A stretch of 34,077 nt of DNA, from positions 39,116-73,192 of the forward strand of contig JAOAIH010000006.1 of assembly GCA_026414805.1 (NCBI GenBank), read 5' to 3'. The notes under the pieces are model-generated. The model ran no database searches. It saw nothing but the letters and a program-made list of their open reading frames with translations, and had not been told where the DNA came from. The translations under genes and the position numbers were made by a program. Source of the stretch: Spirochaetota bacterium. Its GTDB lineage: Bacteria; Spirochaetota; UBA4802; UB4802. Every line of letters begins with the position of its first letter. The stretch's first letter is position 1. Of the stretch, positions 994 through 26,791 are shown one piece after another.

Positions 994-1010
994 TTAAATT
1001 TGGATACATC

Positions 1011-1991
1011 ATGAAAAAGGCACGTTACATTTTTTTAATAATAGGAATATTAATCCTTATTTTTCTTTTTAAAACTTTTGGCTTTCAGAAAACAATTTCA
1101 CAAATACTATCTGTTGGATGGGGCTTCTGGATTATTGTCAGTATATTTATTTTCAGCCACATATTTCTTACACTAGGCTGGAAGGTTGTAATAAATCATC
1201 CTGTTCCCTTGAAAACATTTATTTTGCTTATTTTTGCTCGTATTGCTGGTGATTCAACTTCTTCAATAAACGCTTTTGGATCTATTGCTGGAGAACCGTT
1301 AAAAGCTATGTTTATGAAAAAATATATCCCTTTTCAGATTGGATTGGCCTCTGTTGTGCTGGACAGGACTGCACATTCACTGGCAAATGCACTAATGTTT
1401 TTAACAGGAATTATATTAAGTTTATTTATTCTTAAACTGCCTCTTTACATCACAGCTATTGCATTAGGATTTTTTTCACTTACTCTGTTAATTATTTTTT
1501 TGATTATTCAAAAACAGCGTGAAGGTCTATTAGATTTTATCATTTCAATAATACCATCACGATTGAGCACTAAAATAATTACAGAAGACAGACGAAAAAA
1601 AATTGAAGAATTGGATGAAGAAATTAAATACATCTTCAGCAGCAAATCTCACATATATAAGTTTATCATATCAGTATTACTTCATTATTTTGCAGTGACA
1701 ATATCATGTACTTTAGAGATATATCTGATAGTATATTTCCTCAATATTCAATTTAATATATATCATGCACTTTTTCTGTATGTATTTGGTCTTTTCTTAA
1801 CATCCGTAATGTTCTTCATGCCAGCCAACTTAGGAACCAGTGAAGGATCGTATTCATTAGCCCTTAAACTTTTAGGATATGATCCATCAATGGGCCTTAC
1901 AATAGGTATAGTGCGACGATTGCGTACTTTTATATGGTCAATTATTGGTATCATTATCCTTATACTTGCCGGCTTAAAAAAGAACGAATAA
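1011..1991 (+). CDS. Flippase-like integral membrane protein (LPG-synthase TM / YbhN-like family)
   Basis: This 326-residue protein is almost entirely hydrophobic, with about eight membrane segments. It contains the family pattern of lysylphosphatidylglycerol-synthase transmembrane domains: an early stretch on dispensing with sorting (SINAFGSIAGEPLKAMFMKK), then VVLDRTAHSL, and a C-terminal block MPANLGTSEGSYSLAL. Members without a synthetase domain, as here, are annotated as flippase-like or glycosyl-lipid-associated proteins of the inner membrane; the substrate is not evident. The start ATG has only a weak GGA upstream. It follows the phosphatase gene by 17 nt. Its 3' end overlaps the oppositely oriented phosphohistidine-phosphatase gene by 32 nt. 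Confidence 0.8.
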   Translation: MKKARYIFLIIGILILIFLFKTFGFQKTISQILSVGWGFWIIVSIFIFSHIFLTLGWKVVINHPVPLKTFILLIFARIAGDSTSSINAFGSIAGEPLKAMFMKKYIPFQIGLASVVLDRTAHSLANALMFLTGIILSLFILKLPLYITAIALGFFSLTLLIIFLIIQKQREGLLDFIISIIPSRLSTKIITEDRRKKIEELDEEIKYIFSSKSHIYKFIISVLLHYFAVTISCTLEIYLIVYFLNIQFNIYHALFLYVFGLFLTSVMFFMPANLGTSEGSYSLALKLLGYDPSMGLTIGIVRRLRTFIWSIIGIIILILAGLKKNE

Positions 1992-2445
1992 TTACATCAA
2001 TCATCTTTTCAGGTATATATGCTGTGCAATACAGCATTTCGCCATCGCTAGTTACAAACACAGGAGAAGCATTAGTTATAGTTAAAATCCCTGTTTGAGA
2101 AGTTGAAAGAATTTTTGCCACAAGTACATCAATAAATGGTTTATGGGTAACCACAATGGTATTCCTCTTTTCCTGTAGCAAATATTGAATAATACTATCA
2201 GGATTATCGTTAGGATTTATTGATTTGTTGATTGCAATTTCACAATTAAATTTTTCAGCAAGTATTGCTGCACTTTCATGAGCCCTCAAAACACCACTAT
2301 GCAACACAATATCAGGCCTCCAATTAATTATATGCAAAAAATCTGCAAATCGTAAAAACTGCTCTCTGCCTTTTTGTGACAATGGCCGCTGGGGGTTAAT
2401 CGAAGAATCAACCGCTTCACCATGTTGTATGATAATTGCTTCCAT
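1960..2445 (-). CDS. SixA-like phosphohistidine phosphatase (histidine phosphatase superfamily)
   Basis: This 161-residue protein has the histidine-phosphatase fold signatures: IIIQHGEAV at the N-terminus (His8 is the expected phospho-acceptor), LSQKGREQ, the phosphate-binding block LHSGVLRAHESAAIL, and a second active-site His in VVTHKP. Length and order match SixA, which dephosphorylates histidine phosphotransfer domains. The canonical RHG motif reads QHG here, so the first active-site Arg is replaced by Gln; activity may be altered. The start is supported by GGAGG five bases upstream of the ATG. The 3' end overlaps the convergent flippase-like gene by 32 nt. A sigma70-like promoter lies at 2507-2535. 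Its substrate is unknown. Confidence 0.78.
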   Translation of the reverse strand: MEAIIIQHGEAVDSSINPQRPLSQKGREQFLRFADFLHIINWRPDIVLHSGVLRAHESAAILAEKFNCEIAINKSINPNDNPDSIIQYLLQEKRNTIVVTHKPFIDVLVAKILSTSQTGILTITNASPVFVTSDGEMLYCTAYIPEKMIDVIIRSFLSRQV

Positions 2446-2506
2446 TACGGCCTCCAGGAAAAATAAAAGACTTCACAACAAAAATTTATATCTACATTGT
2501 ACTAAA

Positions 2507-2535
2507 TGTATACTCTATCGATTTTAATTAATCAA
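2507..2535 (-). promoter_or_regulatory. Predicted sigma70-type promoter for the SixA-like gene
   Basis: On the minus strand TTGATT (2530-2535) and TATACA (2507-2512) are separated by 17 nt, giving a good -35/-10 pair that points into the SixA-like gene about 60 nt downstream. It is found by eye only. Confidence 0.5.
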
Positions 2536-2550
2536 CACTATTTTTTACGT

Positions 2551-2579
2551 TTGACTGCATAAAGGCTGTGCAGTATAGT
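2551..2579 (+). promoter_or_regulatory. Predicted sigma70-type promoter for the patatin gene
   Basis: TTGACT (2551-2556) and TATAGT (2574-2579) are spaced by 17 nt. The start of transcription would be near 2586, giving a leader of about 40 nt to the patatin ATG. It lies back to back with the minus-strand promoter at 2507-2535. Confidence 0.6.
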
Positions 2580-2625
2580 TACATATTTAGAATAATTACT
2601 CTACGCTAAATAAAATGGAATCACA

Positions 2626-3537
2626 ATGAAAGTACTGTCGCATATCATTAAATATGTAAGCAAACAATCTCAAAAAAAATCATATCCCAAAAAGAAAGTG
2701 CTCATATTAGAAGGCGGAGGTATGCGTGGAGTTTTCCTCACAGGAGTCCTTCAGGCATTCACTGACAGAGATTATTTCCCTTTTAAACTCATCATTGGAT
2801 CATCAGCTGGTGCTTTAACTGGTGTAGCGTATTCTGCTTCTCAAATTTATTTAGCGCGCGATGCTTTTTTTGGTGTACTGCTAAGCAATAACTTCATTAA
2901 GATTTCAAACATTTTACGGCCAACTAAACATATACTTAACCTTGATTGGATGGTTTCAACAGTCATCGAGGGCAAGGAAACATTAAATTTTCAATACCTA
3001 AAACACTCTATTCCCGTCTTAATAACTGCAACTGAATATAGCGACAACAATCCTCCTGCAACAGTCTATTTAAATTCTAAAAAAGATGATATCGTTACCG
3101 CATTAAAAGCATCAGCAGCAATACCTGTATTATACAGAGGTTTTGTAGAATATCAAAATCGAAAGCTCTGCGATGGAGGTCTACTTGATCCTATTCCCTT
3201 TAAGAAAGCGCTACATATGGGATTTAAGGAAGAAGATATTCTTGTTGTTGTAACAAGGAAAAAAGGATATAGGAAAAAAGAGGAATCATTCTGGATCCGC
3301 TATATCATAGAAAATTATTTTAAAGATTCAAAATATCGATATCTCATTCAGGCACTTGAAAACCGGTATATTATGTATAACGCAATTCTTGATGAACTTG
3401 AACACACATATAAAAATATCAGTGTTATTTATCCACCTGATGATTTCAACGTAGACAGATTAACCCGCGACCCAAAAAAAATTCTAGAAGGCTTTGAGCA
3501 AGGGGTACAATCAGGGAAAAACTTTTTGCTATCCTAA
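2626..3537 (+). CDS. Patatin-like phospholipase
   Basis: This 303-residue protein has the complete patatin Ser-Asp dyad: the oxyanion-hole motif GGGMRG (residues 30-35), the nucleophile elbow GSSAG (58-62, Ser60) and the catalytic Asp in DGG (Asp183). Such enzymes hydrolyse acyl esters of phospholipids. The length and the long C-terminal part after the DGG motif resemble the bacterial YjjU-type branch. No signal peptide is seen; the N-terminus is basic and the protein is probably cytoplasmic or membrane-associated. The ribosome site is weak (GGA). It has its own predicted promoter (2551-2579) and ends 6 nt from the end of the convergent FecR gene. Physiological substrate unknown. Confidence 0.88.
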   Translation: MKVLSHIIKYVSKQSQKKSYPKKKVLILEGGGMRGVFLTGVLQAFTDRDYFPFKLIIGSSAGALTGVAYSASQIYLARDAFFGVLLSNNFIKISNILRPTKHILNLDWMVSTVIEGKETLNFQYLKHSIPVLITATEYSDNNPPATVYLNSKKDDIVTALKASAAIPVLYRGFVEYQNRKLCDGGLLDPIPFKKALHMGFKEEDILVVVTRKKGYRKKEESFWIRYIIENYFKDSKYRYLIQALENRYIMYNAILDELEHTYKNISVIYPPDDFNVDRLTRDPKKILEGFEQGVQSGKNFLLS

Positions 3538-4750: not shown

Positions 4751-5953
4751 TTACGGATTAAATTTCATCCCCAACATTGTAACATCATCAACAAAGCGAT
4801 CGGCTCCACAAAAATCCTGTATTTTATCAAACAAAAATTCTATGAGTTCTGGTATTTCTAGTTGCCTGTGTTCATCAATTAATTGCTGGAATCGCTTTTC
4901 ACCAAGAATTCTATCAACTCTATCGGGGCACTCAAATGCACCGTCTGAAAAGAATAACAACTTATCCCCAGGTAAAAGTTCAATACTTTTAGTTGTATAC
5001 AGCGAAGTATCAAATATGCCAACAAAGGGGCCTGTTGTTTCCATCCTTATTATTTGTCCATCAGGATGTACCACAATAGGTGCAGGTAGACCCGCGTTTA
5101 CATACTCAAGATGGGATTTTTGTAAATCAAAATGCGCAAAGAATATTGTAGCATAATTGTAGCTCATCATCTTTTGTGTCTGAATTAAAAACTGGTTCAT
5201 CTCTTTTAATATTTGGTCAGGAGTTTTTGATATATCTACAAAAGTTGTTATAGCTGTCTTTACAATAGCTGAATAAAGAGCAGCTGGTACTCCATGCCCT
5301 GAAACATCAGCAAATATGAATGAAAAATGCTTTTCGTCATGAATTATAAAATCAAAAAAATCACCACTTATTTTCTCAACAGGCTTGAACTTAAGGTAAA
5401 ATGAAAATCCTTTTATATCCGGAAACACCACTGGAAACAAGCACTGCTGCAGGTTGCTAGCAATATCAAGCTCATTTTCTATCTGTATGGAACGTGCTTG
5501 TAATTGTGCATAAAGCCGTTCAAGTTCCTGGTTTTTTAATTTTAGCTCTTCGAGCAATTTTATATTTTCTTTTACCAGCTTATGGCGCTCATATGCCCTT
5601 TTCACTGCCAGAGTTATTTGATCATTTTTAAATGGTTTAAGTATAAAATCAAATGCTCCAGCTTTTAATGCTGATATTGCAATTTCAATATCATTGTATG
5701 CAGTGATAACAATTATTGGAACATTTTCATCAATTTCATGAACTTTATGTATAAATTCCAATCCGTTTATGCCGGGAAGATTCACATCGGTTATTATGAC
5801 ATCGGAAGAAGCTATTACACCACTTTTTAGTGCATCTTCAGCCGTATAAAAATTATAAACTTTATATTCATTCTCCAGAATAAACTTTAACACTTCATTT
5901 ACTATCTCATCATCATCAATGATGATTACAATTGGCATTTCTATTTTATTCAT
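4751..5953 (-). CDS. Response regulator fused to SpoIIE/PP2C phosphatase (RsbU-like output)
   Basis: 400 residues. A receiver domain spans about 6-125, with acidic pocket DDD (13-15), phospho-acceptor Asp56 (ITDVNLPG), Thr84 and Lys106 (LKPF), all intact. A coiled-coil linker of about 60 residues follows, then a SpoIIE phosphatase domain from about 170 to the end (SGDFFDF, ADVSGHG, FFSDGAFE, DDVTMLGM). Phosphorylation of Asp56 by a histidine kinase would be expected to switch the phosphatase, whose usual substrate is a phosphorylated STAS protein. No histidine kinase is in the window. Its ATG directly follows the TAA of the giant lipoprotein gene with no spacer, indicating translational coupling in the operon that starts at 16634. 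Confidence 0.92.
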   Translation of the reverse strand: MNKIEMPIVIIIDDDEIVNEVLKFILENEYKVYNFYTAEDALKSGVIASSDVIITDVNLPGINGLEFIHKVHEIDENVPIIVITAYNDIEIAISALKAGAFDFILKPFKNDQITLAVKRAYERHKLVKENIKLLEELKLKNQELERLYAQLQARSIQIENELDIASNLQQCLFPVVFPDIKGFSFYLKFKPVEKISGDFFDFIIHDEKHFSFIFADVSGHGVPAALYSAIVKTAITTFVDISKTPDQILKEMNQFLIQTQKMMSYNYATIFFAHFDLQKSHLEYVNAGLPAPIVVHPDGQIIRMETTGPFVGIFDTSLYTTKSIELLPGDKLLFFSDGAFECPDRVDRILGEKRFQQLIDEHRQLEIPELIEFLFDKIQDFCGADRFVDDVTMLGMKFNP

Positions 5954-8900
5954 TTATTGGGCACCATTGGTTGTATCTTTTATTGTACTTCTATAATAAC
6001 GAATCCCAATCCAATACGCAGGATTTTTGAATCGCTTGTCTGCTTTTATAAATTTATATGCTGTTGTATACGAGGCAGTACAATTATTACTTTGAATTGC
6101 ATTGCAAAACTCTCGTATAAATATAACTCCATTTACATCAGCTACCGCAACCTGCAACAAAATGCAGTTTTGTATCTCCCTTTGAATCATAAATAATAAA
6201 TAATAATATGGTACAGAAGATTTACCCCCTACATTTATTAGTAAATAATTAGACTGCAGCATGTCATCTTTCATCATTAACCTTTTTTTATCACTATTAT
6301 ACTCAATGAGGCTTTCATCAATTGCAATCCCTTGAGGTATTGCCTTAAACGTATATGGTAAACCTGATTGCTTAAGTGCCGCTGCAACAAGATCTTTTTT
6401 TGTATTACTTACGTTAATCCACGCAATTGGCGGCACAGGCTTTGCATCATTGAGTGCTGCCATAAGAGATGGCATAAAACTTACTGTCGTATCATATCTA
6501 TTAAATTGGATAATCTCAAACGGTATTGCTTCAGTATATGCATCGGGTACTACTATTATGTCTGAATACCCACTTATTTCATTTATAATTGGTTTCATTA
6601 TACTGTTAATTTCAGCCTCTTTATCAAATGCCTGTTGTAGCAATCCTACTTTTTCATAATATTCACTTACAATCGCATAAAGCTTGGTATATACATTCGG
6701 TAGCCTCACCGGTTGAATGAATGTCCTTGTTATTATCCAGGCAAAAATATCATTTTCATTTTTTGCAATGTATAATATCGCTTTGTGTCTTTGAATAATT
6801 TTCTGAATATCACTGATTGGAAAATTTTTTGAAATAAGCTCATTATAGATACTTTGATACCGACTATTTTCATTGAATAACGCTGTTGCCATAATCATCT
6901 TATGCATTTCAGCATACCGCAGTGCTTCGCGTTGATTTCCTCTGCTCATTGTATATGATATTGCGTAATTAATAAGTTTATCGAATAAATACTTGTACTC
7001 AGTATAATACAATTGTATAGCATCACTACGTAAGCTTGACATCAATTCATCAATATTCTGGGCGATAGTTTGTAATAAAGTGCTCTCTACAGTCTTATCT
7101 GCAGAAATTTTCTGCAGTTGTATGCATATATTGAATACTCTATACAGGAAAGCATCCTTGGTAACCAAGGTACTATCATTTAAAAGTTTGTATGCCTCAT
7201 CAGTTTTGCCTAACATTATTGCTGAATAAACATAGTACGCATACCATATTTTTTCCAATGCATAAGGCACTTTCTTTAACGATTTACATGAAGCATATGC
7301 TTTGGTAAAATTATTATTTTTTTGATATGCAACTATAGATTTGAGAACTACTGCATCGGCCAACATAACATCCTTTTTGGAATTAGCCGCACTTATATAC
7401 TCTAATGTCCGTAAAGGGTTACTGACATTTAGTATTTCAGCTATTTTTACTGTGTTGAATTGCTCATCAAGCCAGCACATCTGATCACTTTTTTCAGTAA
7501 CAAGCATGATTTGCTGCCATTTTTCATCATCTAAATTTTGGCTTTGCTTTATAATTTCTAAAATGGCAAAATGTGATAAAGTACCAAATTCAATTATTGC
7601 TTTAGCAATATTGCTGCTATACGTTGCTTCTGTAACTTTTTTTACCATTTGGTATGCAATTGAATGAGTGTAATGATTAAGAGGATATCCTAAATAATAG
7701 GCAACTAACAGCTCACGCATTGAGGGGATGTAATCCGGTTTATATACCTTTACAAGTTCTAAAGCTTTTTTCTCTTCTCCCAATAGATAAGCAGCTTGAG
7801 CAAATAACAATAACAGCTGATTTATAGATACAATTGATGTGTTGGTTTGTGAAATTTCATTAATATCAGCAATTTTTTCTTTATATTTAAATCCTTTAAT
7901 TATTGACTCATACACTCTATAATCAAATGTATTAACCAGATAAGTATTGGACAGCAATTTTTCAGCACTCTGTATATCCCCTTTTAGGAGATGTATATAC
8001 ACACTGTATGAAATAGCACGCGCGTTATGGGGCTGAGAACGCAGCAATTGCAATGCTTCATCTAATTTATTCTGGTAGATCAACACCAAAACCTTTTTCT
8101 CAAAATATTCTTTTTCTGTTAATCCAGCCCTTCTCCAGCGCAGCAAAGCTAACTGTGCACTATCATAATCACCGCGTATAAGAGCATCTGTGAACTCACT
8201 TTGTTTTTTCTGACCAACTATCTGTACATTACGTAGCTGTTGTTCTATAGAATCAGGAACTTTACCAAGAACAACTGCTCTTGCTTTTTTAAAATCAGAT
8301 GGATGTATTTCACCCTTTATAAACGACGCAATCATGTTTTCAGAACTCCTATCTGAATACACGATAACAGAAGCAATGTGCGAATACACCGCTGCATCTG
8401 CCAAAAGCATTAGCTCCTCTATTTTTAAGACATCCATATATTTAAATAGCGCTGAACATTCTATTTTGTTGGAATAACAGTATTGTGGTGTTACATCAAT
8501 ATCAGGATTATCAGTATCAACTATATACTCCGAGTCAGTTATATTTATGGTAGTTTTTTCAATTTTTTGAAGTCCTTTGTCAGTAGCTACTACATTTCCA
8601 GGCAACCACATCAACTTTTCAGCATCTATTACCCGTGAAATAACCGGAACGCATCCCATGCCATAGAATACTGATGTGCGTATAGTGTTGTATATTGTAA
8701 TCAACGTACTGTTAATTATACAGTAAATTTTGCCTCCAAATGGTTGAATACATTTTTCAACATCCTCAGCAAGTCTTTCTGAATAGGGTGAATCCGAAAT
8801 TAGTCTCCAATTTATAGTATTGTTATATACCAGCCATCCATAAAGTTTACTATCAAACATATAAAAATGTACCACAGGAATATCAGGGGATGTTGGCGTA

Positions 8901-11900
8901 TATACACCTAAATAGGGCAATAGATATAATGGTGCAGATGACCGATGTGCTGCAAGTATGCTATACTGCGAAACAATGTGAGATTGTAATTTTTCAATAT
9001 TGCTTGTTGCCTCTTCAGCAAGAATAGCCTTTGTAAGTTTTTGTTCTAGATCCTGTATGGTAAAGCATGTACGCAAGAATTTTCCATAAAAAGCAGTATC
9101 TTCTTTATTATAAAAATGAGGGATAGATAGCGCATTGAAAGCCATTGTAATGACCTGCTTGCGCGCTTGTATTGTGTAGGCTTCTTTATACCGTTTGTTT
9201 TGTAATAGTTCATTGGTATATGCATCATAGAGGTATTGTACAAACTCCTTTTTCATACGATAGAGGGGTGGTAACAACTCTACGCGAGACAACACCCCAA
9301 TAATGAGCTTTTCAGGATTATCTATAAATTGCTTGATTTCCACATGCCGGTAAGCCATATCCCAGAGCGTTGCTTCAACATCCCACAGTAAATCCTTTGA
9401 CATAATTTTATTTGCTTTGAAGCGCGCACTGATAATATCATCATACCCTTCACGGTACTGGCCACTGCGTATTTTACATATTCCTCTATTGATAAGCAAT
9501 TTAATAACAAATTCCTGATGAACGGCTTCATTACCATAGTAGACAATAGCTTTAGAAAACAACCGTTCTGCTTCCCTGTACATTGAATTAGCTTTAATTA
9601 CATCACTGCTATCATCAGATGCTTTTCTATCCTGTTGCATCATAGCAGCTTTATGCATATACAAAAGAGCAATTAATGCATCAAATTTAATGCTATAGGC
9701 TTCTACCTGTTTTTCCGCCTGTTCTTTTAGTGCAGCAATATCCTGTTCTGCTGGTTTTTTCTTTTGGGCTTTCATCTTTTTAGTATATTCATCAACAAGT
9801 GAATTATATACTTTATCAAATATACTATTTTTGAGCTGCTCAATTTTTTTCAGAGCACCATCAATGCGCATCAACTTCTCTGGATCACTGTTCAGAGTGC
9901 TGGTATAACAATATGCCCATTGAACCAGGATTTGATAGATTTTATCAATAGCAATATTTTTATCCTGCGCAATGGCAAGAGCGCTATCGTACAATTCCAG
10001 TGCTTTTTGCATTGAGCCTGAAAGAGCATAACAGTACCCCGCATTGTACAAGGCAGTAAAATATGCATCAGTCATTAAAGAAGATTTTTGTTTTTTTGTT
10101 AATTCGGCAATAGCCATATACTGGGCTATAGCTTCTTTTAATTTTCCACTCTTTGTAAGAATGTCAGCTTGCATGTTATTGATAAGGATTTCCATTTGCA
10201 TTCCTGAAAGGTGCGAAACAATTTTTCCCTCACCAATAACAACAGTGTCCTGTCCTAGATCATAGAAGTATACGGGGCCAAAACCTCCAAATTTCCAGCC
10301 TATTTTATACTGTACTGACTTTTCTTTCTGCAAAGACCGTTTTGCAAGCTCTAAATACGTAAGAGCCTGGTTATCATTATCCATTTTTCGGTAACACTCA
10401 GCTATCTCAATATATATACGCGAAGAGCTTTCATCACTGTGAATGTTAGGTAGTTGACTCAATGCGTGAGTATACCATTCTATAGCTTTCTCGTAATTGC
10501 CTTGCATTCGTTCAAAGAGGGCAAAATACTTATACAGTACAAACAATGTACCCATTGCAGGTTCATTTTTCTGAGCTATCGCCTTATAAATTCGATATGA
10601 CTGCTGCATTGATGAAAAAGCCTGGGCATAATTCCCCTTCTGCCACATGCAGTATCCATAGTGATAATAAAATAAAGCCTCTTCCTTCAATGTTGAAAAA
10701 GCTTTTTTGAATTCAATTGCTTTATCATAATGGCGTGCAGCTAAATTGAAATTTTTTAAAAGAAAATATATGTTACCAATATTGCAATGAATATCTGCTT
10801 CTCGCTGCGGAAACAAGATTTCATTATTTGCTGCCAGTGCCTTTTCATATAGTGGAATACTTTTTTCCCACAGATACTCAGAAAAATATGTATCTATGAC
10901 TCGTTTCTTTGAAGGGAAAAGACTACGAAGTTCATCGATATACTGATATATCCACCCTTTTAACAGATATGCATCCACAAACATGTCATCTATAAAAAGT
11001 GACCAGTCAATGTGGCGCAAAGCTTTTTTGAAAAGCAAGAGAAGCTCTTCAAACTCCTGTGAGGATTTCCCATTCATTTGCCCTGGAGATAATGCCAATG
11101 CCTGTGCCCATTTCACATAAATATACCCAAGGCCAAAGATGTGCGCCTTATCAAAATCCATTCGTGCAATAGGCAATCGGTTAAGATACTCCTTCTCAAG
11201 ATCATGTATTGAACTATCCTGTGATAAGCCCAGCATTGCATTAATATACCCTGTGTGTGCACCTGGTGCATTATTGCTGTAAATATCTCTGTATCGCCGT
11301 TTGAGAAGGAGCAATGTATTCATAGTAATGTAACGCTTATATAATGAAGCAGCATCCTTATAATTGCCTTCTGAAATAAGCCTTTGTCCAGTTTGTTCAA
11401 AATATTGACTTAGCTGTTCAATAATTGGTCGTATATCCTGTTTCCACTGAGCCTGATAATTATTGACTGCAGCCTCATAGTACACAACCCACTCATCACT
11501 TTTTTGGTCATAGTATAATTGCCCTAATGCTATATTGATTAAAAAATATGAAACATCAAGCTTCTTGGTGTTTTCCAATCCCTGTTTCAAAAGCGGTATT
11601 GCTTCGTCATTCCGCTGTAACTCAATGAGGCTTGTTGCAGCAATATACTGCATAATAGCTTTGATGATTGGAACAGTGTAGCTTTTGGATGCATCTAGTG
11701 CGTTGCTATATCGTTTGTGTATTGCAATATTTTTTGCACTATCAATAATTTGAATAGTAATAGCATTTTTTAAATAGGTGTATGAGGATTGTAAAACAGA
11801 AATCCATTCTTCAGGAATAGCAAAATCATTATACACCAGCCCTCCTACCTTGTAGCGCACATACATCACCCGCGCATAGTGAGGATAGTGTGCAATAATG

Positions 11901-13321
11901 CCAGAGTATACTGCTTGAGCTTTCTCAAACATTCTTGCACTCATGTACAAATCAGCAAGCTCTTCCATAAAAAACGGTGTTTCTTTCTCATTATTTTGTG
12001 CCGACAGTTCCTTAATACTGTTCTCAAGCAATGATATTTTTTCCTTATCTTTGACCGATCTTAAGCGCGCATATATGAACGCAGGTTTACTGGTTTTAGC
12101 CATTGCAGCAAGAATTGTTTGAACAAATGAATACTGCTTGTAATACGATAGTTCATATAATGCTTTTGCAATGATCATCCCAGACTCAGCATCACCTGCT
12201 TCTTTGAAAAAATAATATGTCGCAAAAAGGCATCGTAGGTAACGGTCATGATCATCATAATCTTCTTTATATTTCAAAGCAAGTTCATACTGCCGCAATG
12301 CATTCTTTTGTTTTGGGATTATCCCTGTATGCGGGATCATTGCTATATTAATATATTCCCCTTCAACAATGCTGTACACAATTACACCATCAGCATACGG
12401 GACCCATCGTGGTGTTGCTGATGGCTCTTCAACAAGCGTTAGCGGGTATTCTTCTTTTTTGCTTACATCATAGGCATACAGTATACTTGCATCATTGGTA
12501 TTCACTATACCATCATTATTGGTGTCTTGTTCAATGCGCATAAAATAAATTTCATTTCTGGTTTTACCAAAGCAGGGCGATAGCTCTAAATATTCATTGT
12601 GAGTGATTTGATTTATTTGACCAGTGGTAAGATCTACTGTAAAAACATTGGTTCCTTTTTGATTTTTTTTCACAAATATTAGCGTATTACCATCATTGGA
12701 AAACCGCGGCTGCATGCCCTCAGTAATTTTTTTTATGCCTTTCCCATCCCTTCCCATGATGTAGATAGATTCCTCGCCATCGCGGGTAGATGAAAACGCA
12801 ATTAATTTTCCATCTGGCGAAAAGCATGGTGAAGCATCACGTACTGGTACGATAGCTCCTGAAAGCGGGTCCCTTATAACAGTAATATTTGTTGATGGTG
12901 CTTCCTGATCGGATTGTGCAATCATCGTTTCAGGATCAAGCTTCATGATAAAGATATCACCTTCAGGATCATCTCTGGTGGAAACAAATGCACACCATTT
13001 ACCATCCACTGATACGTCAGGAGAGAAATCACGAGCGGGATGCATGGTTATACGGACAGTAGTAATGTCATTGAGCGCTCGCAGGTAAATATCAAAATTA
13101 TTGCGTTCCTTATTTGAAGCATATACAAAATATTTTCCATCAGCAGTTATACTACCGCTCACATTGACCTTACGATCAAAGGTGAGCGGTATTGAACGTC
13201 CTGTTCCAAAACGATATTCTTTTGTTAAAACTTGTGAATAATCAAACGGTATGTCGCGGTATGCTGTTGTAGCACATCCCGTGAGTAATAATACAACAAT
13301 TGCAATTACAATACGTTTCAT
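5954..13321 (-). CDS. Giant lipoprotein: PD40/TolB-like propeller, TPR solenoid, two degenerate CHAT-like modules
   Basis: 2455 residues. The N-terminus MKRIVIAIVVLLLTGC is a lipoprotein signal with lipobox LTGC (Cys16). Residues ~40-330 hold PD40/TolB-like beta-propeller repeats (for example SPDVSVDGKWCAFVSTRDD and SPCFSPDGKLIAFSSTRDG), interrupted at ~264-275 by a calcium-loop-like DTNNDGIVNTND. Residues ~340-1400 and ~1690-2190 are tetratricopeptide-type helical repeats. A CHAT-like fold is suggested at ~1482-1690 and again, more clearly, at ~2195-2445 (IIVVPDAYTEAIPFEII near 2252, NPAYWIGIRYY near 2432). At the C-terminal module the usual catalytic His (HxxTHG block) reads LLINVGGKSS and no LSAC cysteine block is seen, so protease activity is unlikely. 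The start overlaps the YdbL-like gene by ATGA. The function is not known; a large envelope scaffold is inferred. Confidence 0.85.
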   Translation of the reverse strand: MKRIVIAIVVLLLTGCATTAYRDIPFDYSQVLTKEYRFGTGRSIPLTFDRKVNVSGSITADGKYFVYASNKERNNFDIYLRALNDITTVRITMHPARDFSPDVSVDGKWCAFVSTRDDPEGDIFIMKLDPETMIAQSDQEAPSTNITVIRDPLSGAIVPVRDASPCFSPDGKLIAFSSTRDGEESIYIMGRDGKGIKKITEGMQPRFSNDGNTLIFVKKNQKGTNVFTVDLTTGQINQITHNEYLELSPCFGKTRNEIYFMRIEQDTNNDGIVNTNDASILYAYDVSKKEEYPLTLVEEPSATPRWVPYADGVIVYSIVEGEYINIAMIPHTGIIPKQKNALRQYELALKYKEDYDDHDRYLRCLFATYYFFKEAGDAESGMIIAKALYELSYYKQYSFVQTILAAMAKTSKPAFIYARLRSVKDKEKISLLENSIKELSAQNNEKETPFFMEELADLYMSARMFEKAQAVYSGIIAHYPHYARVMYVRYKVGGLVYNDFAIPEEWISVLQSSYTYLKNAITIQIIDSAKNIAIHKRYSNALDASKSYTVPIIKAIMQYIAATSLIELQRNDEAIPLLKQGLENTKKLDVSYFLINIALGQLYYDQKSDEWVVYYEAAVNNYQAQWKQDIRPIIEQLSQYFEQTGQRLISEGNYKDAASLYKRYITMNTLLLLKRRYRDIYSNNAPGAHTGYINAMLGLSQDSSIHDLEKEYLNRLPIARMDFDKAHIFGLGYIYVKWAQALALSPGQMNGKSSQEFEELLLLFKKALRHIDWSLFIDDMFVDAYLLKGWIYQYIDELRSLFPSKKRVIDTYFSEYLWEKSIPLYEKALAANNEILFPQREADIHCNIGNIYFLLKNFNLAARHYDKAIEFKKAFSTLKEEALFYYHYGYCMWQKGNYAQAFSSMQQSYRIYKAIAQKNEPAMGTLFVLYKYFALFERMQGNYEKAIEWYTHALSQLPNIHSDESSSRIYIEIAECYRKMDNDNQALTYLELAKRSLQKEKSVQYKIGWKFGGFGPVYFYDLGQDTVVIGEGKIVSHLSGMQMEILINNMQADILTKSGKLKEAIAQYMAIAELTKKQKSSLMTDAYFTALYNAGYCYALSGSMQKALELYDSALAIAQDKNIAIDKIYQILVQWAYCYTSTLNSDPEKLMRIDGALKKIEQLKNSIFDKVYNSLVDEYTKKMKAQKKKPAEQDIAALKEQAEKQVEAYSIKFDALIALLYMHKAAMMQQDRKASDDSSDVIKANSMYREAERLFSKAIVYYGNEAVHQEFVIKLLINRGICKIRSGQYREGYDDIISARFKANKIMSKDLLWDVEATLWDMAYRHVEIKQFIDNPEKLIIGVLSRVELLPPLYRMKKEFVQYLYDAYTNELLQNKRYKEAYTIQARKQVITMAFNALSIPHFYNKEDTAFYGKFLRTCFTIQDLEQKLTKAILAEEATSNIEKLQSHIVSQYSILAAHRSSAPLYLLPYLGVYTPTSPDIPVVHFYMFDSKLYGWLVYNNTINWRLISDSPYSERLAEDVEKCIQPFGGKIYCIINSTLITIYNTIRTSVFYGMGCVPVISRVIDAEKLMWLPGNVVATDKGLQKIEKTTINITDSEYIVDTDNPDIDVTPQYCYSNKIECSALFKYMDVLKIEELMLLADAAVYSHIASVIVYSDRSSENMIASFIKGEIHPSDFKKARAVVLGKVPDSIEQQLRNVQIVGQKKQSEFTDALIRGDYDSAQLALLRWRRAGLTEKEYFEKKVLVLIYQNKLDEALQLLRSQPHNARAISYSVYIHLLKGDIQSAEKLLSNTYLVNTFDYRVYESIIKGFKYKEKIADINEISQTNTSIVSINQLLLLFAQAAYLLGEEKKALELVKVYKPDYIPSMRELLVAYYLGYPLNHYTHSIAYQMVKKVTEATYSSNIAKAIIEFGTLSHFAILEIIKQSQNLDDEKWQQIMLVTEKSDQMCWLDEQFNTVKIAEILNVSNPLRTLEYISAANSKKDVMLADAVVLKSIVAYQKNNNFTKAYASCKSLKKVPYALEKIWYAYYVYSAIMLGKTDEAYKLLNDSTLVTKDAFLYRVFNICIQLQKISADKTVESTLLQTIAQNIDELMSSLRSDAIQLYYTEYKYLFDKLINYAISYTMSRGNQREALRYAEMHKMIMATALFNENSRYQSIYNELISKNFPISDIQKIIQRHKAILYIAKNENDIFAWIITRTFIQPVRLPNVYTKLYAIVSEYYEKVGLLQQAFDKEAEINSIMKPIINEISGYSDIIVVPDAYTEAIPFEIIQFNRYDTTVSFMPSLMAALNDAKPVPPIAWINVSNTKKDLVAAALKQSGLPYTFKAIPQGIAIDESLIEYNSDKKRLMMKDDMLQSNYLLINVGGKSSVPYYYLLFMIQREIQNCILLQVAVADVNGVIFIREFCNAIQSNNCTASYTTAYKFIKADKRFKNPAYWIGIRYYRSTIKDTTNGAQ

Positions 13322-13914
13322 TTTTTTACCCAGCGCCCATCCTCTTTTTGTATCCAGTCGCCTTTTTTTGCTTTTGCATGCTGCTCTTTTGCAAAATCAT
13401 ACCCAAACCGTATAGCTTTAGGATCATTTTTATCCTGTGAGCCAGAACTTTTAATAAAAATAATCACTCGTGCATTATTTTCATCATTAACAACAGAACG
13501 TATGGCTGCACTATCTTTGACTGACTGTAATTTCTTTTCATCTACTATTCCCACATATCCGTTATTCATTTCACCAATAATTCCCATGTCTTTATACATG
13601 CGTATCCTGTCAAGGTTGAGTTCACGTATCTTTATTGCCTGTAGTAGGGATTCATCTGTAGATATAAATGCATAACGTTCCCCCTTTGACGGAACCATAA
13701 CTGTTGAAGTGACCCAGGCGTCCTTCTCAATTTCTTTGTATTCACCAATAAGCTGACGCTCCAAAGCCGTTTTTTCACCTGTAATGTGTATTGCAGGGGG
13801 ATGTATCTCAATACAGCTTGGCATTCCTTTTAGGCAAGCTGATGAACTGCATCGTACCTGTGAATACAGTATTCCCGCAACGATAGCCAGTGCTATCGCC
13901 ACTATATGTTTCAT
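13318..13914 (-). CDS. YdbL-like exported protein (DUF1318)
   Basis: 198 residues. An N-terminal hydrophobic signal (about 1-21) is followed by a Cys-containing segment and a block IHITGEKTALERQLIGEYKE. The C-terminal ~90 residues carry the DUF1318/YdbL pattern: GIIGEMNNGYVGIV, NDENNARVIIF, and the closing GDWIQKEDGRWVKK. In Escherichia coli YdbL is a periplasmic protein encoded with the AsmA-like YdbH and the small lipoprotein YnbE, which together act in outer-membrane lipid homeostasis. Here no separate YnbE gene is seen; the extra N-terminal ~70 residues might take its place, which is speculative. The start follows GGAGG by seven bases and overlaps the AsmA-like stop by ATGA; the stop overlaps the giant lipoprotein start in the same way. 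Confidence 0.75.
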   Translation of the reverse strand: MKHIVAIALAIVAGILYSQVRCSSSACLKGMPSCIEIHPPAIHITGEKTALERQLIGEYKEIEKDAWVTSTVMVPSKGERYAFISTDESLLQAIKIRELNLDRIRMYKDMGIIGEMNNGYVGIVDEKKLQSVKDSAAIRSVVNDENNARVIIFIKSSGSQDKNDPKAIRFGYDFAKEQHAKAKKGDWIQKEDGRWVKK

Positions 13915-16634
13915 AACGTTTCCTCCCTTACCCTGTTAAAAAATTCAACTACCGGTATCCGCTCATAGCGTACTTGCTCATTATTGACAGTAACAAAAAC
14001 ACCCAGCACTTTCTTTTTAAATAAAACAGTAGGATAAACTAGCCCTTTATCAAGATAAAAATCAAAACCGGTAATAATAAGTGAGTTGTCTACTGCAAAC
14101 TGTGCCATTCCCAATTTAGATCTGCCACGCTCTTCATTAATACCTTTGAACAGCCTGTTTGCAAATTGTTCGCCCACCTTATAGATATTTACTGAACCAG
14201 AAATATCAAAATCCTGTGCAATATTAAGATTCTTGCCCACAACCTGTGCATTAAAAGATAACAATGAATCTTTATTAATTTTGACCGACTCAGGCTTGTC
14301 AAGCTTGCCTATATCAATGTCATGTGCATTGAGGACAATTTTAAATTCCATGTTTTGCGGATTGAGATCGGCCAGATTGAAATATAATTCTTTAAAGGTA
14401 ACCGTGCCCTTTAACACCTGTGCACTAAAATCTTTGATTTCAAGTATATTGCGATTAAAACCAATATGCCCGTGAATGTTTGTAACATATTCAAATGCAA
14501 TATTTCGTGATGGATGCTGTGCCACAATTTTACCAATTGAAACGTTTGCCTTTTGTTTGAAAAACTGAATATTCATAACATCTGTTGAATCAAATGGTAT
14601 TTTAAAGCTCTTGCCCATTGAGTAGGCTATAGGTATATTCATGTCAACAGGGCCAACAAAAAGCTTTGCAGAATCATTACTAAGCAGAAAACCCTTTGAC
14701 TGCAAGCTTCCTGTGGCAACTAATGTATGCAGTGTTCCTTTGAGGGCTATAATTGCTTGCAGCATACCGCTCAATGAGTAATTGCCAAATGCAACTTTTG
14801 ACGTCGGAGCAACCTTTGCTCCTGCCTCAATATCAAGCATCAATTCCTGATTTGTCATCAATGAGCCTTTCACATAACAATGAGCCTTGTGCTTGTAGCT
14901 TGATACATCAAAGTAGGATATATCAATTTTTCCTTTTTTTGGTTTTTGTGTAATTGCTGCTTGTACCAATAAATCATCAATGGAATAATCAGGTATATTA
15001 CACATCGCTTTAATATTAATACTATTTGTTTCTTCAGAACTACTTAGATCTGTATGTATATTCAGTGTCACAGGTTTTGTTATAGGACTTGATGAAAGGG
15101 AATGCTTAAGCTGAGCTGGAAGAGTATATGCTATTGAAGAAAGATCAAACTTTAACATAGAAACTGTAATGTCTGCATTCAAACTTTCACCCAGTATTAC
15201 TTTACCAAAAGCTTCACATCGAATTGTTTCAGATGCTATCTCCGGTGCTTTATGAATTAAAAGTAATTTTTGGATGTCCAGAGAATTATTATTCATAGAA
15301 TACAATACAGTACACTGTACACTGACACTGTTTTCCCTAGATTTGTTTTCATCCAATGAATACACAAAATGTGGTAATTGAGCATCAACAGTTGCCTCAA
15401 TAAAAGGATTGCGCATGATTACTGAATACGGTATTTCAACTGTTGGTATGGTAATAGCAAAATCTCCCGTAGAAAACGCAAGTTTACTACCTCTTATTGC
15501 ACCTTTAACTTTTAACTCATGTGAATCCCCTGTAATCATAAGAGGAAATATTGAAAGCGAACCATTAAAATATGGTTTTTTACCCAGAAGTATACTGGTG
15601 TATCTATACACTTCATTAAGACGGATATTGCTATCAAGCATGGCAAACTGTATTGTAGGCTGTGTATTTATTTTTTTTATGGTTCCAGCAAATGATATCC
15701 AGGTTGATTGCGCAAATACAACTTTCAATATATTGCAGTGCAATATATCATCTGTTGGATTGTATACAATATCATATTTTACTTGTGCATTGAGGGGGGC
15801 TACATGCTTTCTTGTAAACCTGATGGGAGTATTGTGGGTACCACACTTAAAATTACTTGCCACTTGTGTTTCTTCAGGATTATATAAAAGATTGAAAGTA
15901 AATAACACCGGTGGCCCTGCAGCAATATCCCTTGACACAAACGAAAGTTGTAGCGTTTGGTCGGGATTTACTTTTATGTGTAATTTGTCAAATATCATTA
16001 CTGCCATAAGATTTAATGGAATATGGCGTGTTGGGGGAATGTGGAATGAAATGCCTGCTGAAAAATTATCAAGATTGAGATTATACGTGCTGCTTTTAAT
16101 ATGTAACGAAAGATTTTCCACTACAAACCCAAAAAGAATTTCAAATGGAACTGGCAAAGTTATTTCATCCTTTTTTTCTTTTTCTTTTTTGTCTTTATCT
16201 TCTTCTATTTTATCTTCTTTTGCATGTGGTTTTAACAATTTTTGAACATTCCATATTCCATTATGCTCTTCTATATATATGTGTGGCTTATATATGCCAA
16301 TTTCATATATTTTTATTTTCCCTATAAACAGTGGGAAAAAACTATACCTCAATTTTAACTCATCAAAATAAATGACAGGTTTTAAATCATTAATATTCAA
16401 AAGTTTGAAATTCTTTATTTCAAAGCCATTGAATAAAGAAAAATGAGTCACATCACAGGAAGCTTTTGCATTGAGGTTGGACTCTACCTGGTTAATAATA
16501 ATTTTTTCTACTCGTTCGTTGGTTAATACAATATTGGCAATGCATAGAATCAGTACAATTAAAATGATCAGGCTGCTGAGTGCTATCACACTATAAAAGA
16601 CAATTGAAAAGATGCATCGCGTAAGAGTTCTCAA
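13911..16634 (-). CDS. AsmA/YdbH-like inner-membrane-anchored protein
   Basis: 907 residues with one N-terminal membrane anchor (about residues 10-35). Next comes an AsmA-type N-terminal region: NERVEKIIINQVESNL, FNGFEIKNFKLL and IYKPHIYIEEHNGIWNVQKLL. A Lys/Glu-rich linker (about 135-157) precedes a long beta-rich region to the end, as expected of the repeating beta-groove fold of AsmA, TamB and YdbH proteins that bridge the periplasm. Co-localisation with a YdbL-like gene argues for the YdbH branch; E. coli YdbH has a similar length (about 880 residues). The start is a TTG, chosen because GGAG lies seven bases upstream, the anchor follows at once, and no in-frame ATG is near. It is the first gene of a four-gene minus-strand operon. 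Confidence 0.75.
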   Translation of the reverse strand: MRTLTRCIFSIVFYSVIALSSLIILIVLILCIANIVLTNERVEKIIINQVESNLNAKASCDVTHFSLFNGFEIKNFKLLNINDLKPVIYFDELKLRYSFFPLFIGKIKIYEIGIYKPHIYIEEHNGIWNVQKLLKPHAKEDKIEEDKDKKEKEKKDEITLPVPFEILFGFVVENLSLHIKSSTYNLNLDNFSAGISFHIPPTRHIPLNLMAVMIFDKLHIKVNPDQTLQLSFVSRDIAAGPPVLFTFNLLYNPEETQVASNFKCGTHNTPIRFTRKHVAPLNAQVKYDIVYNPTDDILHCNILKVVFAQSTWISFAGTIKKINTQPTIQFAMLDSNIRLNEVYRYTSILLGKKPYFNGSLSIFPLMITGDSHELKVKGAIRGSKLAFSTGDFAITIPTVEIPYSVIMRNPFIEATVDAQLPHFVYSLDENKSRENSVSVQCTVLYSMNNNSLDIQKLLLIHKAPEIASETIRCEAFGKVILGESLNADITVSMLKFDLSSIAYTLPAQLKHSLSSSPITKPVTLNIHTDLSSSEETNSINIKAMCNIPDYSIDDLLVQAAITQKPKKGKIDISYFDVSSYKHKAHCYVKGSLMTNQELMLDIEAGAKVAPTSKVAFGNYSLSGMLQAIIALKGTLHTLVATGSLQSKGFLLSNDSAKLFVGPVDMNIPIAYSMGKSFKIPFDSTDVMNIQFFKQKANVSIGKIVAQHPSRNIAFEYVTNIHGHIGFNRNILEIKDFSAQVLKGTVTFKELYFNLADLNPQNMEFKIVLNAHDIDIGKLDKPESVKINKDSLLSFNAQVVGKNLNIAQDFDISGSVNIYKVGEQFANRLFKGINEERGRSKLGMAQFAVDNSLIITGFDFYLDKGLVYPTVLFKKKVLGVFVTVNNEQVRYERIPVVEFFNRVREETL

Positions 16635-16769: not shown

Positions 16770-17144
16770 ATGAGTACACTAAATGATCTTTTTTCTTCTG
16801 AATATTTAAAAGACAACGCCATTCTCATAGGTAAAATCAAAAAACCAACAATCACCAAAGAAGAAGCTAACCAAATCCTAGAATTTGTCAAGCAAGATAT
16901 ACAAAACTACCCTGACCACCAGCATTTTATACTTGATGTCCTTGTGGTACAGGAGGTATCAAATCCAATAATAGGCGTTTTAATGAAAGCGCTGCAATTC
17001 TGGAAAAAAACAAGAGGGTATGCTCTCCTTGTGATGACTGATGATCTTTTGCAAAAAATAATGATTGAACAGCCTGCAATGTTTGACTTTTTTGCAGTTT
17101 TTCATAGTATTGATGAAGCAATAGCCTTTACAAAAAAGGCCTAA
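16770..17144 (+). CDS. STAS-domain protein (anti-sigma-factor-antagonist-like)
   Basis: This 124-residue single-domain protein has the STAS pattern: a central strand FILDVLVVQEVSNPIIGVLMKAL, where Ser in EVSNPIIGVL occupies the usual phosphorylation loop. A strand GYALLVMTDDLLQKI follows, then the closing FFAVFHSIDEAIAFTKKA typical of anti-anti-sigma factors. Such proteins are phosphorylated by RsbW/SpoIIAB-like kinases and dephosphorylated by SpoIIE phosphatases. Two of the latter are in this window (1-993 and 4751-5953), but no kinase is. The gene stands alone and diverges from the AsmA-like operon. Its end lies 3 nt from the end of the convergent CoA-activase gene. Ribosome site is a weak AGGG. 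The regulated partner is not known. Confidence 0.72.
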   Translation: MSTLNDLFSSEYLKDNAILIGKIKKPTITKEEANQILEFVKQDIQNYPDHQHFILDVLVVQEVSNPIIGVLMKALQFWKKTRGYALLVMTDDLLQKIMIEQPAMFDFFAVFHSIDEAIAFTKKA

Positions 17145-17147: not shown

Positions 17148-20100
17148 TTATAACTCTTTAATTATTTTTCTTTCAACTCCAACTGCCCTTACCTCACGGT
17201 GCTCAATAATATCATTCATTTTGGGCTCTTCCTTAAAGCGCATCACATTCAACATGAATATTTCAAGCTTGTTTAATGTTGTAGGAGGGAGAGTATTTCC
17301 ATCAATTTCCAATGACATTACGGGATATCCTTGTAACCGCGCCCAAGGGGTGAGAATTCCTTCAATTACACGGCCAATCAAACAAGCAAATGGCGAGATA
17401 TTGACAATGCCCGAATACCCATCCTGCATTGCTGATGCTGCAACGCCACTTGACACACTTATCTCGGACTGAAGCTCTAAATTAACAAAATGTTTTTTTG
17501 CCATGTCCATTATTGCATGCATATCATGAGGAGTTTCCAGAATAAGCCCTGTTTTCCCAAGTGCTCTTTTAACTTTTTTTTCTACCGAATGTTTATACCA
17601 TTGTTCAATATAAAATCGTAATAACTTTTTTGTTTCAGCTATAAAAAGCTTTTTATACCATGGCGCTTGCTTTATTACCTTTTTAAGCTCATACTCGCGA
17701 ACAAAATCACAATAATAGATCCATTCACTAACTCCTGAAACCTTGGCAATAATTCCTTTTGTGCTGAAATGTTTAATAAGTTCATCAATTGCAAAATCAT
17801 CTCTGCGTACATAGATCTCTCCCACTACCAGTACTTTTGGGCATTGGGCGATAGCTCTTTGTAATGGTATTTTGCTGATAGTATCAGCTATTCTTTTTAG
17901 CACCGGTATCACTCTGGTAATATCCTTTTCTGCAACCTGAAGTAACTCCTGCCACAGTGTATCATACACTGCAAGTGCAGCTATTGGGTCTTTGGCACAT
18001 GCTCTCAGTGCTGTTTCAATATCTTTCATATAGTCGCTGATGACAACTCCCCACCATGCATGTTTTGAAAAGTGCGGACCCAACTCTGTATATGAATGTG
18101 ATGAATCAAGTGTTACCACGCATACATTTTCAAAACGTAAATCCTTAAATAAATTTTCATAGAGTACAAAATACTGGCCTGTGCGGCATGGTCCTTGGGT
18201 TGTAGGCACAAATAATAAATATATTTCATCCTTCTTGTATCGTGACGAAGAAAAGTATTGCAGTGCGCTTCCCAATACCAGATGCGAAGGCAAGCATTCT
18301 TTCCCCGAGACAAATTGCCGTGCTAATTGCAATGTTCTGGCATCAGGTACTGGCATTGCTTCAGCATGTATGCCTGCAGAACGCAGTGATGCAGCTAAAA
18401 GCTCTGCACCCAAACGACCCATGCTGGCTAAAAGCAGCGTAACTTTGTTATTGTTTCGTACAGGAATTTTGTGACCGGTAAACACATTGCGTACATACAA
18501 ATCATTATCTTCAATGACAAACCGTAAACCATTATCATATCTTGCAACATTTTCACCCATACACTTTTGTCTGTAGCCTTCAATAATATCTAAGAATGCT
18601 TCAATACGCGTATCAATACCTGCATCAGCAGTATGCGAATCAAGTTCTAGAATGAGGAACGGTTTTGAACCCATAATCCATTTCAGGTAGTGCAGCATAA
18701 ATGAGTCGGGAGCACATGAAAAATTTGAAATAAACGTTACATATATGTTATTTTCTTTTGCAAGCATGACAGCTGCCTTCATATCCTGCTGGCCATAAAA
18801 CCAGTACATGTTTGAAAATATTGTCTCATCTACAAAAGGCAGTATGTCAAAAGGAATTACTGTATATCCCATACTGGTATATTTTTTTGGAATACCCATG
18901 TTTGCATTACCAGTAAACGCATTATACGGGCGTCCTAACAGAGCTATTGCCGGTTTTTGCAATGTGCGAGCAAACTCTAATGCCTGCTTTCCCAATTCTT
19001 GTGCTTTTTTGAAGTATTCATTCTGTTTTTCCAGTGCAATCCTGAAAGCCATTTTCCCCTGTGCTTCAGAAAAGCCCAATTTTTTTGCAATTTCCACAAA
19101 CGAAATCTCTGTTTGTTCGTCTGACAGTTTAAGGTTTATAACTGGCGAAAGTATTTTCTGCTGCGGTAACTCATCAAACGCTTTTTGAATATAATAGGGC
19201 AGCCCCTGGGTTATAGGACAGAATGTAGCACGTACATCATTCTGGTAACTCTTCATTTCCTTAATATGTGGCAGGAATATATAATCAACATTCTTCTCTA
19301 AAATATTTTTAACCACACCATGCGCAATCTCAGCAGGGAAGCAATAGGCACTTTCTACTTTTGCTACTCCTTCTTCTGAGATTTCATCCGAAGTAACTAT
19401 CGCCACACCTAATGAATGAAAAAACCATGAATACAATGGCCACAATGTGTAAGTAGAAAAGCACAACGGTATACCAACTGTAACAGATGCATTGTGAATT
19501 TTTTCTTGTGGGGAATATTCATTAAACAATAGCGCATTTCTTTTTTCTATAAAATCAACAACTTCATTTTGGTTCACTATCCTCTTTTTGCGGATGTTAG
19601 CATACTTGTTGCACCTTCCACCAAACATATAAGTATTGCCATTGACATTGAGCACTCGTATAGGGCAATAATTGTCACATGCCTTGCAGGTGAACTCTCG
19701 TTCGTATATGATATTGGTATTGAGGATTGCCTCAAGGGAATATATTTTTTTCTGTAGCTGTCCCTCCTTCAACTTGTTATAAGCAACCAGCGCTACACCA
19801 AAACATCCCATGAGTTCAGGATCAGGTGGTACTGTTATGTGTTTGCCAAGTAACATAGCAAATGCAAGGGGAACTGCTTTGTTTTTTGCTACACCACCCT
19901 GCAGCACTATGGCATTGCCTATTGTTCTATTACCCACAACACGATTAAGATAATTTGCAACAATTGATGTTACTAACCCTGCAGTGATGTCCTCTTTGCT
20001 TGCGCCCTGCTGAATAGCTTTGCGTATATCAGAATTAATAAATGCCGAGCAGTGCTGGCCAAATTTAAGTGGATTATCTGCTTTAAGTGCAATATCACCT

Positions 20101-21449: not shown

Positions 21450-21455
21450 GACAAT

Positions 21456-21461
21456 ACCTCC
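21456..21461 (-). promoter_or_regulatory. Ribosome binding site fixing the CoA-activase start
   Basis: GGAGGT on the minus strand, six bases before the ATG at 21449. It favours this start over an in-frame GTG 24 nt upstream, and the protein then begins directly with the ATPase strand. Confidence 0.7.
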
Positions 21462-21510
21462 ATGTTTATGCACACTTTGGTCTATTATTAGTTTTTTTGT
21501 ATATTCCTGT

Positions 21511-23127: not shown

Positions 23128-23656
23128 ATAATTTCTCCTAATATTATAAGGTTAATGTTGGTTTCATACTGATTGAAATTCCTGTAAGCTATTCTCTACC
23201 TGCAACATGTTGATACAATTGGTATTTGTTTAACGTAATAATTGTATTTGTCATCCTTCCTGGATTTATACAAAGGAAGTATGTCCATTATTGTAACTTT
23301 ATCACAAAAATTTGCAATACAGCAAAAATTTCATGTATTATTAAATTATTAATTCTTAAAGATTCTCAATGCACAATTTAAAACAAATTTGTATACACAT
23401 TACTTCAAGCAGCGTATAGACGTCAACTACTTCATTTCTTTTATACATTGTTATAATTACCCACGGCAAGCAAGAATAAAGAGTTTGATACATAGAATAT
23501 TATATTTGTTTTTGCGTTATATTCACTTTACCTTTTATACTGAATGTGATATTTCAAAATAAGAAAGTCTCTGGTCATTTTTTAAACGTTGGATAATTGA
23601 ATGCAATCCTGAATTACTCAAAGTAGCACTGTGTATATAAATTAGGTAAATAGCAA
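23128..23656. other. Gene-free AT-rich region upstream of hypB
   Basis: About 530 nt without a credible coding frame or RNA gene. It must hold the hypB promoter; the best candidate is at 23290-23317. Otherwise I see only short AT-rich stretches. The downstream terminator of the hydrogenase operon borders it. Confidence 0.6.
23290..23317 (-). promoter_or_regulatory. Possible promoter for the hypB unit
   Basis: On the minus strand TTGCAA (23312-23317) and TACAAT (23290-23295) are spaced by 16 nt. It is the best pair I found in the region and would give a leader of about 155 nt. Weak evidence, by eye. Confidence 0.3.
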
Positions 23657-23691
23657 AAAAAGGCTATCCGTAGTATACGAATAGCCTTTTT
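23655..23691 (-). terminator. Intrinsic terminator of the hydrogenase operon
   Basis: An inverted repeat AGGCTAT-C-CGTA / TACG-A-ATAGCCT with a 3-nt loop and one mismatch lies 20 nt after the large-subunit stop. Read on the minus strand it is followed by a run of seven T. The A run on the other side could also extend the stem, and the T5 on the plus strand would allow weak bidirectional action. Confidence 0.85.
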
Positions 23692-23710
23692 ATGGACAAT
23701 ACTATTGTAG

Positions 23711-26273: not shown

Positions 26274-26297
26274 GTAACAACCTCCTAATGTATCAGG

Positions 26298-26765: not shown

Positions 26766-26791
26766 TGCAATGTCTTTGATGGCACCATTGT

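Follow-up and report, generated by a model that had tools for sequence, protein, structure and literature searches.

A conserved spirochaete gene trio for an AsmA-family bridge protein, a YdbL-domain protein and a giant lipoprotein, with recurrent partner-switching neighbours

The YhdP, TamB and YdbH proteins of Escherichia coli provide an analogy for phospholipid transport (PMC8593681, PMC8912898), and an interaction between YdbH and YnbE is cited in a further report (PMC12977461). In Borrelia, TamB is reported to be essential and to bind BamA (PMC12045153). The route by which phospholipids reach the outer membrane beyond Proteobacteria is largely open. Here we analyzed a window, meaning the whole stretch of 34,077 nucleotides at positions 39,116 to 73,192 of contig JAOAIH010000006.1 (assembly GCA_026414805.1), from a 3.24-Mb Spirochaetota genome assembled into 186 contigs. 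A minus-strand operon in this window encodes an AsmA-family protein, a YdbL-domain (DUF1318) protein and a giant lipoprotein, hereafter the trio, followed by a receiver-SpoIIE phosphatase. An earlier note on this DNA, made from its letters and open reading frames (ORFs), knew of no described system with this gene set; the literature that we searched contained nothing on the function of the LIC_11026 family related to the AsmA protein, on DUF1318 biology or on a trio operon. The gene set is real, widely conserved and apparently undescribed; it varies the AsmA/YdbL bridge and does not reproduce YdbH-YnbE-YdbL.

The trio was surveyed in 198 Spirochaetota genomes. Presence lists were read from tables with chosen cut-offs (E below 1e-28 for the AsmA profile), p-values ignore relatedness, and the family labels are inferred (f15 as Brachyspira-like, f22 as Turneriella-like and f11 as Leptospiraceae-like). 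The AsmA profile was present in 87 genomes, the giant core profile in 86 and DUF1318 in 86. AsmA and the giant occurred together in 86 genomes, with AsmA alone in one, the giant alone in none and neither in 111; DUF1318 and the giant were both found in 85, each without the other in a single genome, and neither in 111. The co-occurrence of the trio gave p ~1e-54, relatedness being ignored. The order AsmA, DUF1318, giant on a single strand characterized all complete loci inspected of the window's order, as well as f30 and part of f11, and the search recovered it widely, in several families, which is more than a chance arrangement and supports a unit, as suggested earlier. As to recurrence of the full four-gene order, the trio core is widespread and the phosphatase occurs as fourth gene only in families f1, f3, f4 and f7, being a lineage-restricted member outside the universal core.

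The trio also persists where its genes are apart. In f15 the giant lies far from the AsmA-DUF1318 pair, and in f22 all three genes are dispersed. The f15 giant matched the core profile weakly (1e-7 to 1e-10), and a full-length profile confirmed it in the five f15 genomes fetched, at 103-140 bits. Five f11 genomes carry two DUF1318 genes and two giants each, four of the five with two full AsmA genes, and genus g3, inside the window's own order, has lost all three trio genes. AsmA, DUF1318 and the giant are inherited as one set, linked or not.

Gene 1 (16634-13911, minus strand) encodes 907 aa from a TTG start preceded by GGAG and belongs, as an AsmA-family beta-groove bridge, to the LIC_11026 branch of Leptospira. 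It matched AsmA (PF05170) at 2.5e-8 (33.7 bits, cut-off 29.8) and, over much of its length, the Leptospira LIC_11026 family (NF047499) at E 6e-87; because its 292 bits fall below the curated cut-off of 325, it is a relative and not a listed member of that family. The AlphaFold model, with a mean predicted confidence (pLDDT) of 84.5, contains an N-terminal membrane helix, a long beta groove and a C-terminal helix. Its top structural matches were apoB-100 and LPD-3, a eukaryotic bridge-like lipid-transfer protein, and they offer weak support because of marginal E-values and low TM-scores. The earlier note had likened gene 1 to YdbH. Across 26 relatives of gene 1, the YdbH domain (PF11739) gave no significant match, with one relative at E 0.019 and the window protein without any, and hhalign against a single YdbH sequence returned 0.9% with the full-length protein and 0.1% with its C-terminal region; these tests gave no support for a specific relation to YdbH. 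The TamB domain (PF04357) did no better than E 0.093 among the same number of relatives. The note had also held that another AsmA branch without a YdbL partner would speak against its proposal; the branch is indeed another one, and a YdbL partner accompanies it in 86 of 87 genomes. In most gene 1 relatives of the order, a charged extension of 30-100 residues, presumably cytosolic, precedes the membrane helix (alignment A2, columns 1-100); the window's genus is without it, and it could be a docking site for a cytosolic partner. Two genomes have the AsmA gene as two overlapping ORFs (L056, 3484-6335; L073, 6922-9977), through a frameshift, an assembly error or a real two-piece version.

Gene 2 (13914-13318, minus strand; 198 aa) encodes an exported protein that is a genuine YdbL/DUF1318 relative, as had been proposed. 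The DUF1318 profile (PF07027) matched at 8.6e-13 (49 bits against a cut-off of 27), hhalign with E. coli YdbL gave 96.8%, the gene 2 profile matched the YdbL crystal structure (PDB 28oj, deposited as 'probable chaperone-like'), and the same entry was the sole significant PDB match of the gene 2 model (probability 1.00, TM-score 0.72 by target length). The protein differs by a conserved extra N-terminal segment with invariant P40, T49, E52 and G57, to which the monomer model assigns low confidence; this would be compatible with a region that becomes folded on binding a partner. That the segment is a fused YnbE was rejected, as the likeness is superficial, with 4.7% in the comparison with YnbE and no beta structure in the model; it would be conceivable only for a segment that takes its fold on the partner. 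The operon contains no gene for a YnbE-like small lipoprotein, and the giant had been thought to stand in its place. In the lipobox survey, most relatives of the DUF1318 protein carried a lipobox, which is atypical in the window (YSQVRC) and reads MSGC in one relative of the same genus. The YdbL-type protein is thus usually a lipoprotein itself, and therefore the giant does not simply replace YnbE and is an additional partner. A second cysteine, Cys34 (window 13813-13815), sits in a PSC motif just past the lipobox and is conserved in the window's order. Scanning named genome contigs for the DUF1318 motif returned Spirochaetota and unlabelled bins only; the motif is lineage-specific, and the scan therefore does not show absence outside Spirochaetota.

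Gene 3 (13321-5954, minus strand; 2455 aa) encodes the giant, in which a canonical lipobox (LTGC, Cys16) is followed by PD40 and TPR repeats. Alignment occupancy delimits a conserved core of PD40 propeller and TPR repeats (residues 1-1400; 9122..13321) from a variable C-terminal part with a degenerate CHAT-like region (residues 1401-2455; 5957..9121). Relatives of 1429-1452 aa end at the core boundary (residue ~1400), and the CHAT-like tail is missing in some relatives. PD40 was found in all 18 relatives and Pfam CHAT in 7 of 18, the window protein having no CHAT match. In the alignment of relatives, neither a His nor a Cys of the tail is invariant, so the tail is not a conserved protease. An active CHAT domain was rejected, and of the description as a PD40/TPR/CHAT-like lipoprotein the first two elements and the lipobox stand. 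We found no part of the giant that would signal across a membrane. In several f15 genomes (G121, G101, G077, G092 and G141), the giant core lies ~7 kb from lpxC.

Gene 4 (5953-4751, minus strand; 400 aa) matched Response_reg at 1.1e-26 and SpoIIE at 4.1e-45, and its motifs (D56, K106, GDFFD at 197, DVSGHG at 216, and SDG) are intact; as predicted earlier, and judged by its domains and motifs, it is an intact receiver-SpoIIE phosphatase. The four minus-strand ORFs were found where they had been placed, with the DNA at the junctions of genes 1 to 4, in order, reading ACGTTATGAAAC, AAAAAATGAAAC and CAATAAATGAAT, that is, ATGA, ATGA and TAA-ATG. A fifth gene on the same strand had been overlooked: it encodes an exported protein with a FecR domain (ATG start at 4578, end at 3544; FecR 1.6e-12), and in many relatives it follows the receiver-SpoIIE gene, or the giant directly where gene 4 is missing (f2, f5). 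The divergent ORF at 16770-17144 (plus strand, 124 aa) had been called a STAS gene. The ORF is there and has no Pfam STAS match; its likeness to STAS comes only from profile comparison (hhalign with a STAS alignment, 88% probability, E 2.8e-6), and it was seen only in the window's genus.

Partner-switching genes, taken as SpoIIE, STAS and RsbW-like (HATPase_c_2) genes, recur beside the trio in several families, in line with the link proposed earlier. Of the 276 positions no more than two genes from a trio member they filled 33, and of the 228 positions at least four genes away, taken from the stretches fetched for this comparison, they filled 5 (odds ratio 6, p 2.6e-5, which is not a test on independent samples because many loci are mutually related). 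Seven different arrangements were observed across separate lineages, and in each the partner-switching gene shares its strand with the trio gene. The receiver-SpoIIE gene follows the giant in f1, f3, f4 and f7, and a STAS gene does so in f6; a SpoIIE gene precedes AsmA in one f2 genome, and a STAS gene precedes it by 1-45 bp in f11. A kinase-AAA-GAF-SpoIIE gene follows DUF1318 in two f11-like loci, and STAS precedes the giant in four of the five f15 genomes checked. In three of six f22 loci, finally, the giant is followed by GAF-SpoIIE, HATPase_c_2 and, except in one locus cut off before that position, STAS. A complete SpoIIE-HATPase-STAS set thus stands beside the f22 giant, and the window has an adjacent degenerate STAS-like ORF and no adjacent kinase gene. 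A supposed STAS neighbour at the Turneriella-like DUF1318 locus proved wrong, the neighbours there looking like FKBP-type isomerases. In f30 (L060, L164 and L165), a GAF-sigma54 activator gene is convergent to the giant, and no partner-switching gene is adjacent.

The distribution of TamB was largely complementary to that of the trio. The window's genome gave no match to PF04357, and outside f15 only 1 of the 60 trio genomes had a TamB, compared with 82 of the 109 genomes that lack the trio. At the family level the association was much weaker than at the genome level (p ~0.001-0.003, with counts assembled by hand). Within g3, two of the six trio-less genomes (G037 and G086) have a strong TamB, at 1e-41 and 4e-38. 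These two proteins are far nearer to the Pfam model than nearly all spirochaete TamBs, possibly through horizontal transfer. The window's genome and most of its order, which have the trio, lack LpxC, and many genomes without the trio possess it; the trio therefore does not track lipid A, and a tie to lipopolysaccharide or lipid A was rejected.

We propose that the trio forms a spirochaete-specific intermembrane bridge, an alternative to TamB with a giant lipoprotein partner, that is under partner-switching control or feeds into it, and we put the probability of this reading at roughly 0.5. By analogy with YhdP, TamB and YdbH, the AsmA protein would be anchored in the inner membrane and carry phospholipid along its groove. 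The YdbL-domain lipoprotein, on the model of YnbE and YdbL, would meet the far end of the AsmA protein at the outer membrane, and the disordered N-terminal segment of gene 2 may fold onto the bridge or onto the giant. The giant would have its anchor in the outer membrane, in the inner leaflet, and would dock or organize bridges with its propeller and TPR arms. In the cytosol, the receiver-SpoIIE phosphatase (elsewhere the STAS/RsbW-like genes) would use a partner switch to adjust how much of the machine is present or how active it is, or would read its state. The general idea of the earlier note, that envelope lipid traffic is coupled to a giant scaffold and a partner-switching output, is in part retained here, with corrections regarding YdbH, YnbE, CHAT, STAS and the number of genes. 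A broader version, in which Spirochaetota possess two alternative bridges, TamB or a previously undescribed complex of AsmA, YdbL-type lipoprotein and giant, and in which the latter is connected to partner switching, a phosphatase switch setting the supply of envelope lipid or receiving reports of it, is tentative and rather doubtful as a whole.

Several observations weigh against the proposed bridge. Shared ancestry confounds both the co-occurrence of the trio and the exclusion of TamB. f15 has TamB and the trio together, and 27 genomes have neither by the PF04357 model, which could therefore miss a diverged TamB. Lipid transport is suggested by analogy only. With the lipoprotein in the periplasm and the phosphatase in the cytosol, direct contact is impossible, and a link would have to run via gene expression or a membrane-spanning member. 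Moreover, partner-switching genes are abundant, with 14-77 SpoIIE genes per genome in all but one of those counted and 23-29 STAS genes in each of four genomes counted, and about half of the families have no such neighbour.

This abundance and the families without such a neighbour are also what would be expected if the trio were a functional unit and its SpoIIE and STAS neighbours were incidental, owing to their abundance alone. We regard this as rather unlikely, given the sixfold enrichment over farther genes of the same contigs, the seven same-strand arrangements in separate lineages and the retention of the receiver-SpoIIE gene in four families. The giant may be the centre of the signalling, as an envelope sensor or scaffold that reports to the partner switch, with the AsmA and YdbL-type proteins serving its folding or placement. 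Partner-switching genes do adjoin the giant where it is unlinked from AsmA (f15, f22), giant and DUF1318 copy numbers match, and the chaperone-like label of the deposited YdbL structure is in keeping with such a service; the f11 STAS gene, however, adjoins AsmA and not the giant, which itself lacks a recognized signalling part across the membrane, and this explanation appears quite improbable.

Two further explanations concern the complementarity with TamB. If Spirochaetota comprised two old clades, one carrying the trio and the other TamB, co-occurrence and exclusion would say nothing on function. Presence does track families closely, and the much weaker association at the family level points the same way, but the joint loss of the trio in g3 of the window's order, its joint duplication in f11 and the strong TamB in two trio-less g3 genomes argue for more than descent, and we think it unlikely that clade history is the whole account. 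The trio might instead help to insert outer-membrane proteins or lipoproteins, and not move lipids, as a machine resembling the translocation and assembly module (TAM), and for that reason stand in for TamB. The reportedly essential, BamA-binding TamB of Borrelia (PMC12045153) is consistent with this, as are the complementarity itself and the TolB-like propeller and TPR arms, which are typical of protein-protein docking. Yet in E. coli the AsmA protein that YdbL works with has a role in lipid homeostasis (PMC8593681), and no Omp85 protein was seen in the operon loci inspected, which leaves assembly of proteins an improbable task for the trio.

The surroundings of the operon are partly conserved. 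Past the FecR gene, window positions 1-3537 hold genes for a GAF-SpoIIE protein, an LPG-synthase-like membrane protein, a histidine phosphatase and a patatin-like phospholipase; relatives retain some of these genes beside the operon (L032, L047, L048 and L052). Upstream of the AsmA gene, a 1441-residue BcrAD/BadFG-DUF2229 protein resembling CoA-dehydratase activases (17148-21473) is a neighbour kept in several families (L037, L052, L074, L091 and L092). Farther on (22459-31845) are NiFe hydrogenase subunits, a class III cytochrome c and a HypB-like GTPase, with apparent HypF, HypD and HypE genes, named from sequence starts only, on the opposite strand.

As a testable bridge candidate, the trio bears on phospholipid supply in Leptospira and its relatives. 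It would connect the widespread and little-understood YdbL domain with a core envelope machine and hint at what the lipoproteins of 2000-3000 residues, a family for which we found no function, may do. The supply of the outer membrane would also be coupled to a signalling switch. The presence of the trio mostly in species without TamB, together with its recurrent switch genes, suggests that a basic envelope machine exists here in a regulated form specific to spirochaetes.

Among described systems, YdbH-YnbE-YdbL of E. coli likewise has an AsmA-superfamily bridge gene followed by a DUF1318/YdbL gene in one operon with a lipoprotein. The spirochaete locus differs in its AsmA branch, in having no YnbE homologue, in a YdbL-domain protein that is usually a lipoprotein with an extra segment, in its obligate giant propeller-TPR companion and in its partner-switching neighbours. 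With TamB and the TAM it shares an AsmA-superfamily beta-groove bridge, and the complementary distribution suggests a shared job, whereas gene 1 has no TamB domain match and the operon loci inspected contain no TamA or BamA gene. The PD40 repeats of the giant match TolB propeller models at 92 bits against a cut-off of 343, and, unlike TolB, the giant has a lipid anchor, a huge TPR region and no pal neighbour. Compared with RsbU/RsbV/RsbW, the window has no adjacent kinase gene and only a degenerate STAS-like gene, but it does encode an intact receiver-SpoIIE protein, and some Turneriella-like genomes carry the complete SpoIIE-HATPase_c_2-STAS set beside the giant.

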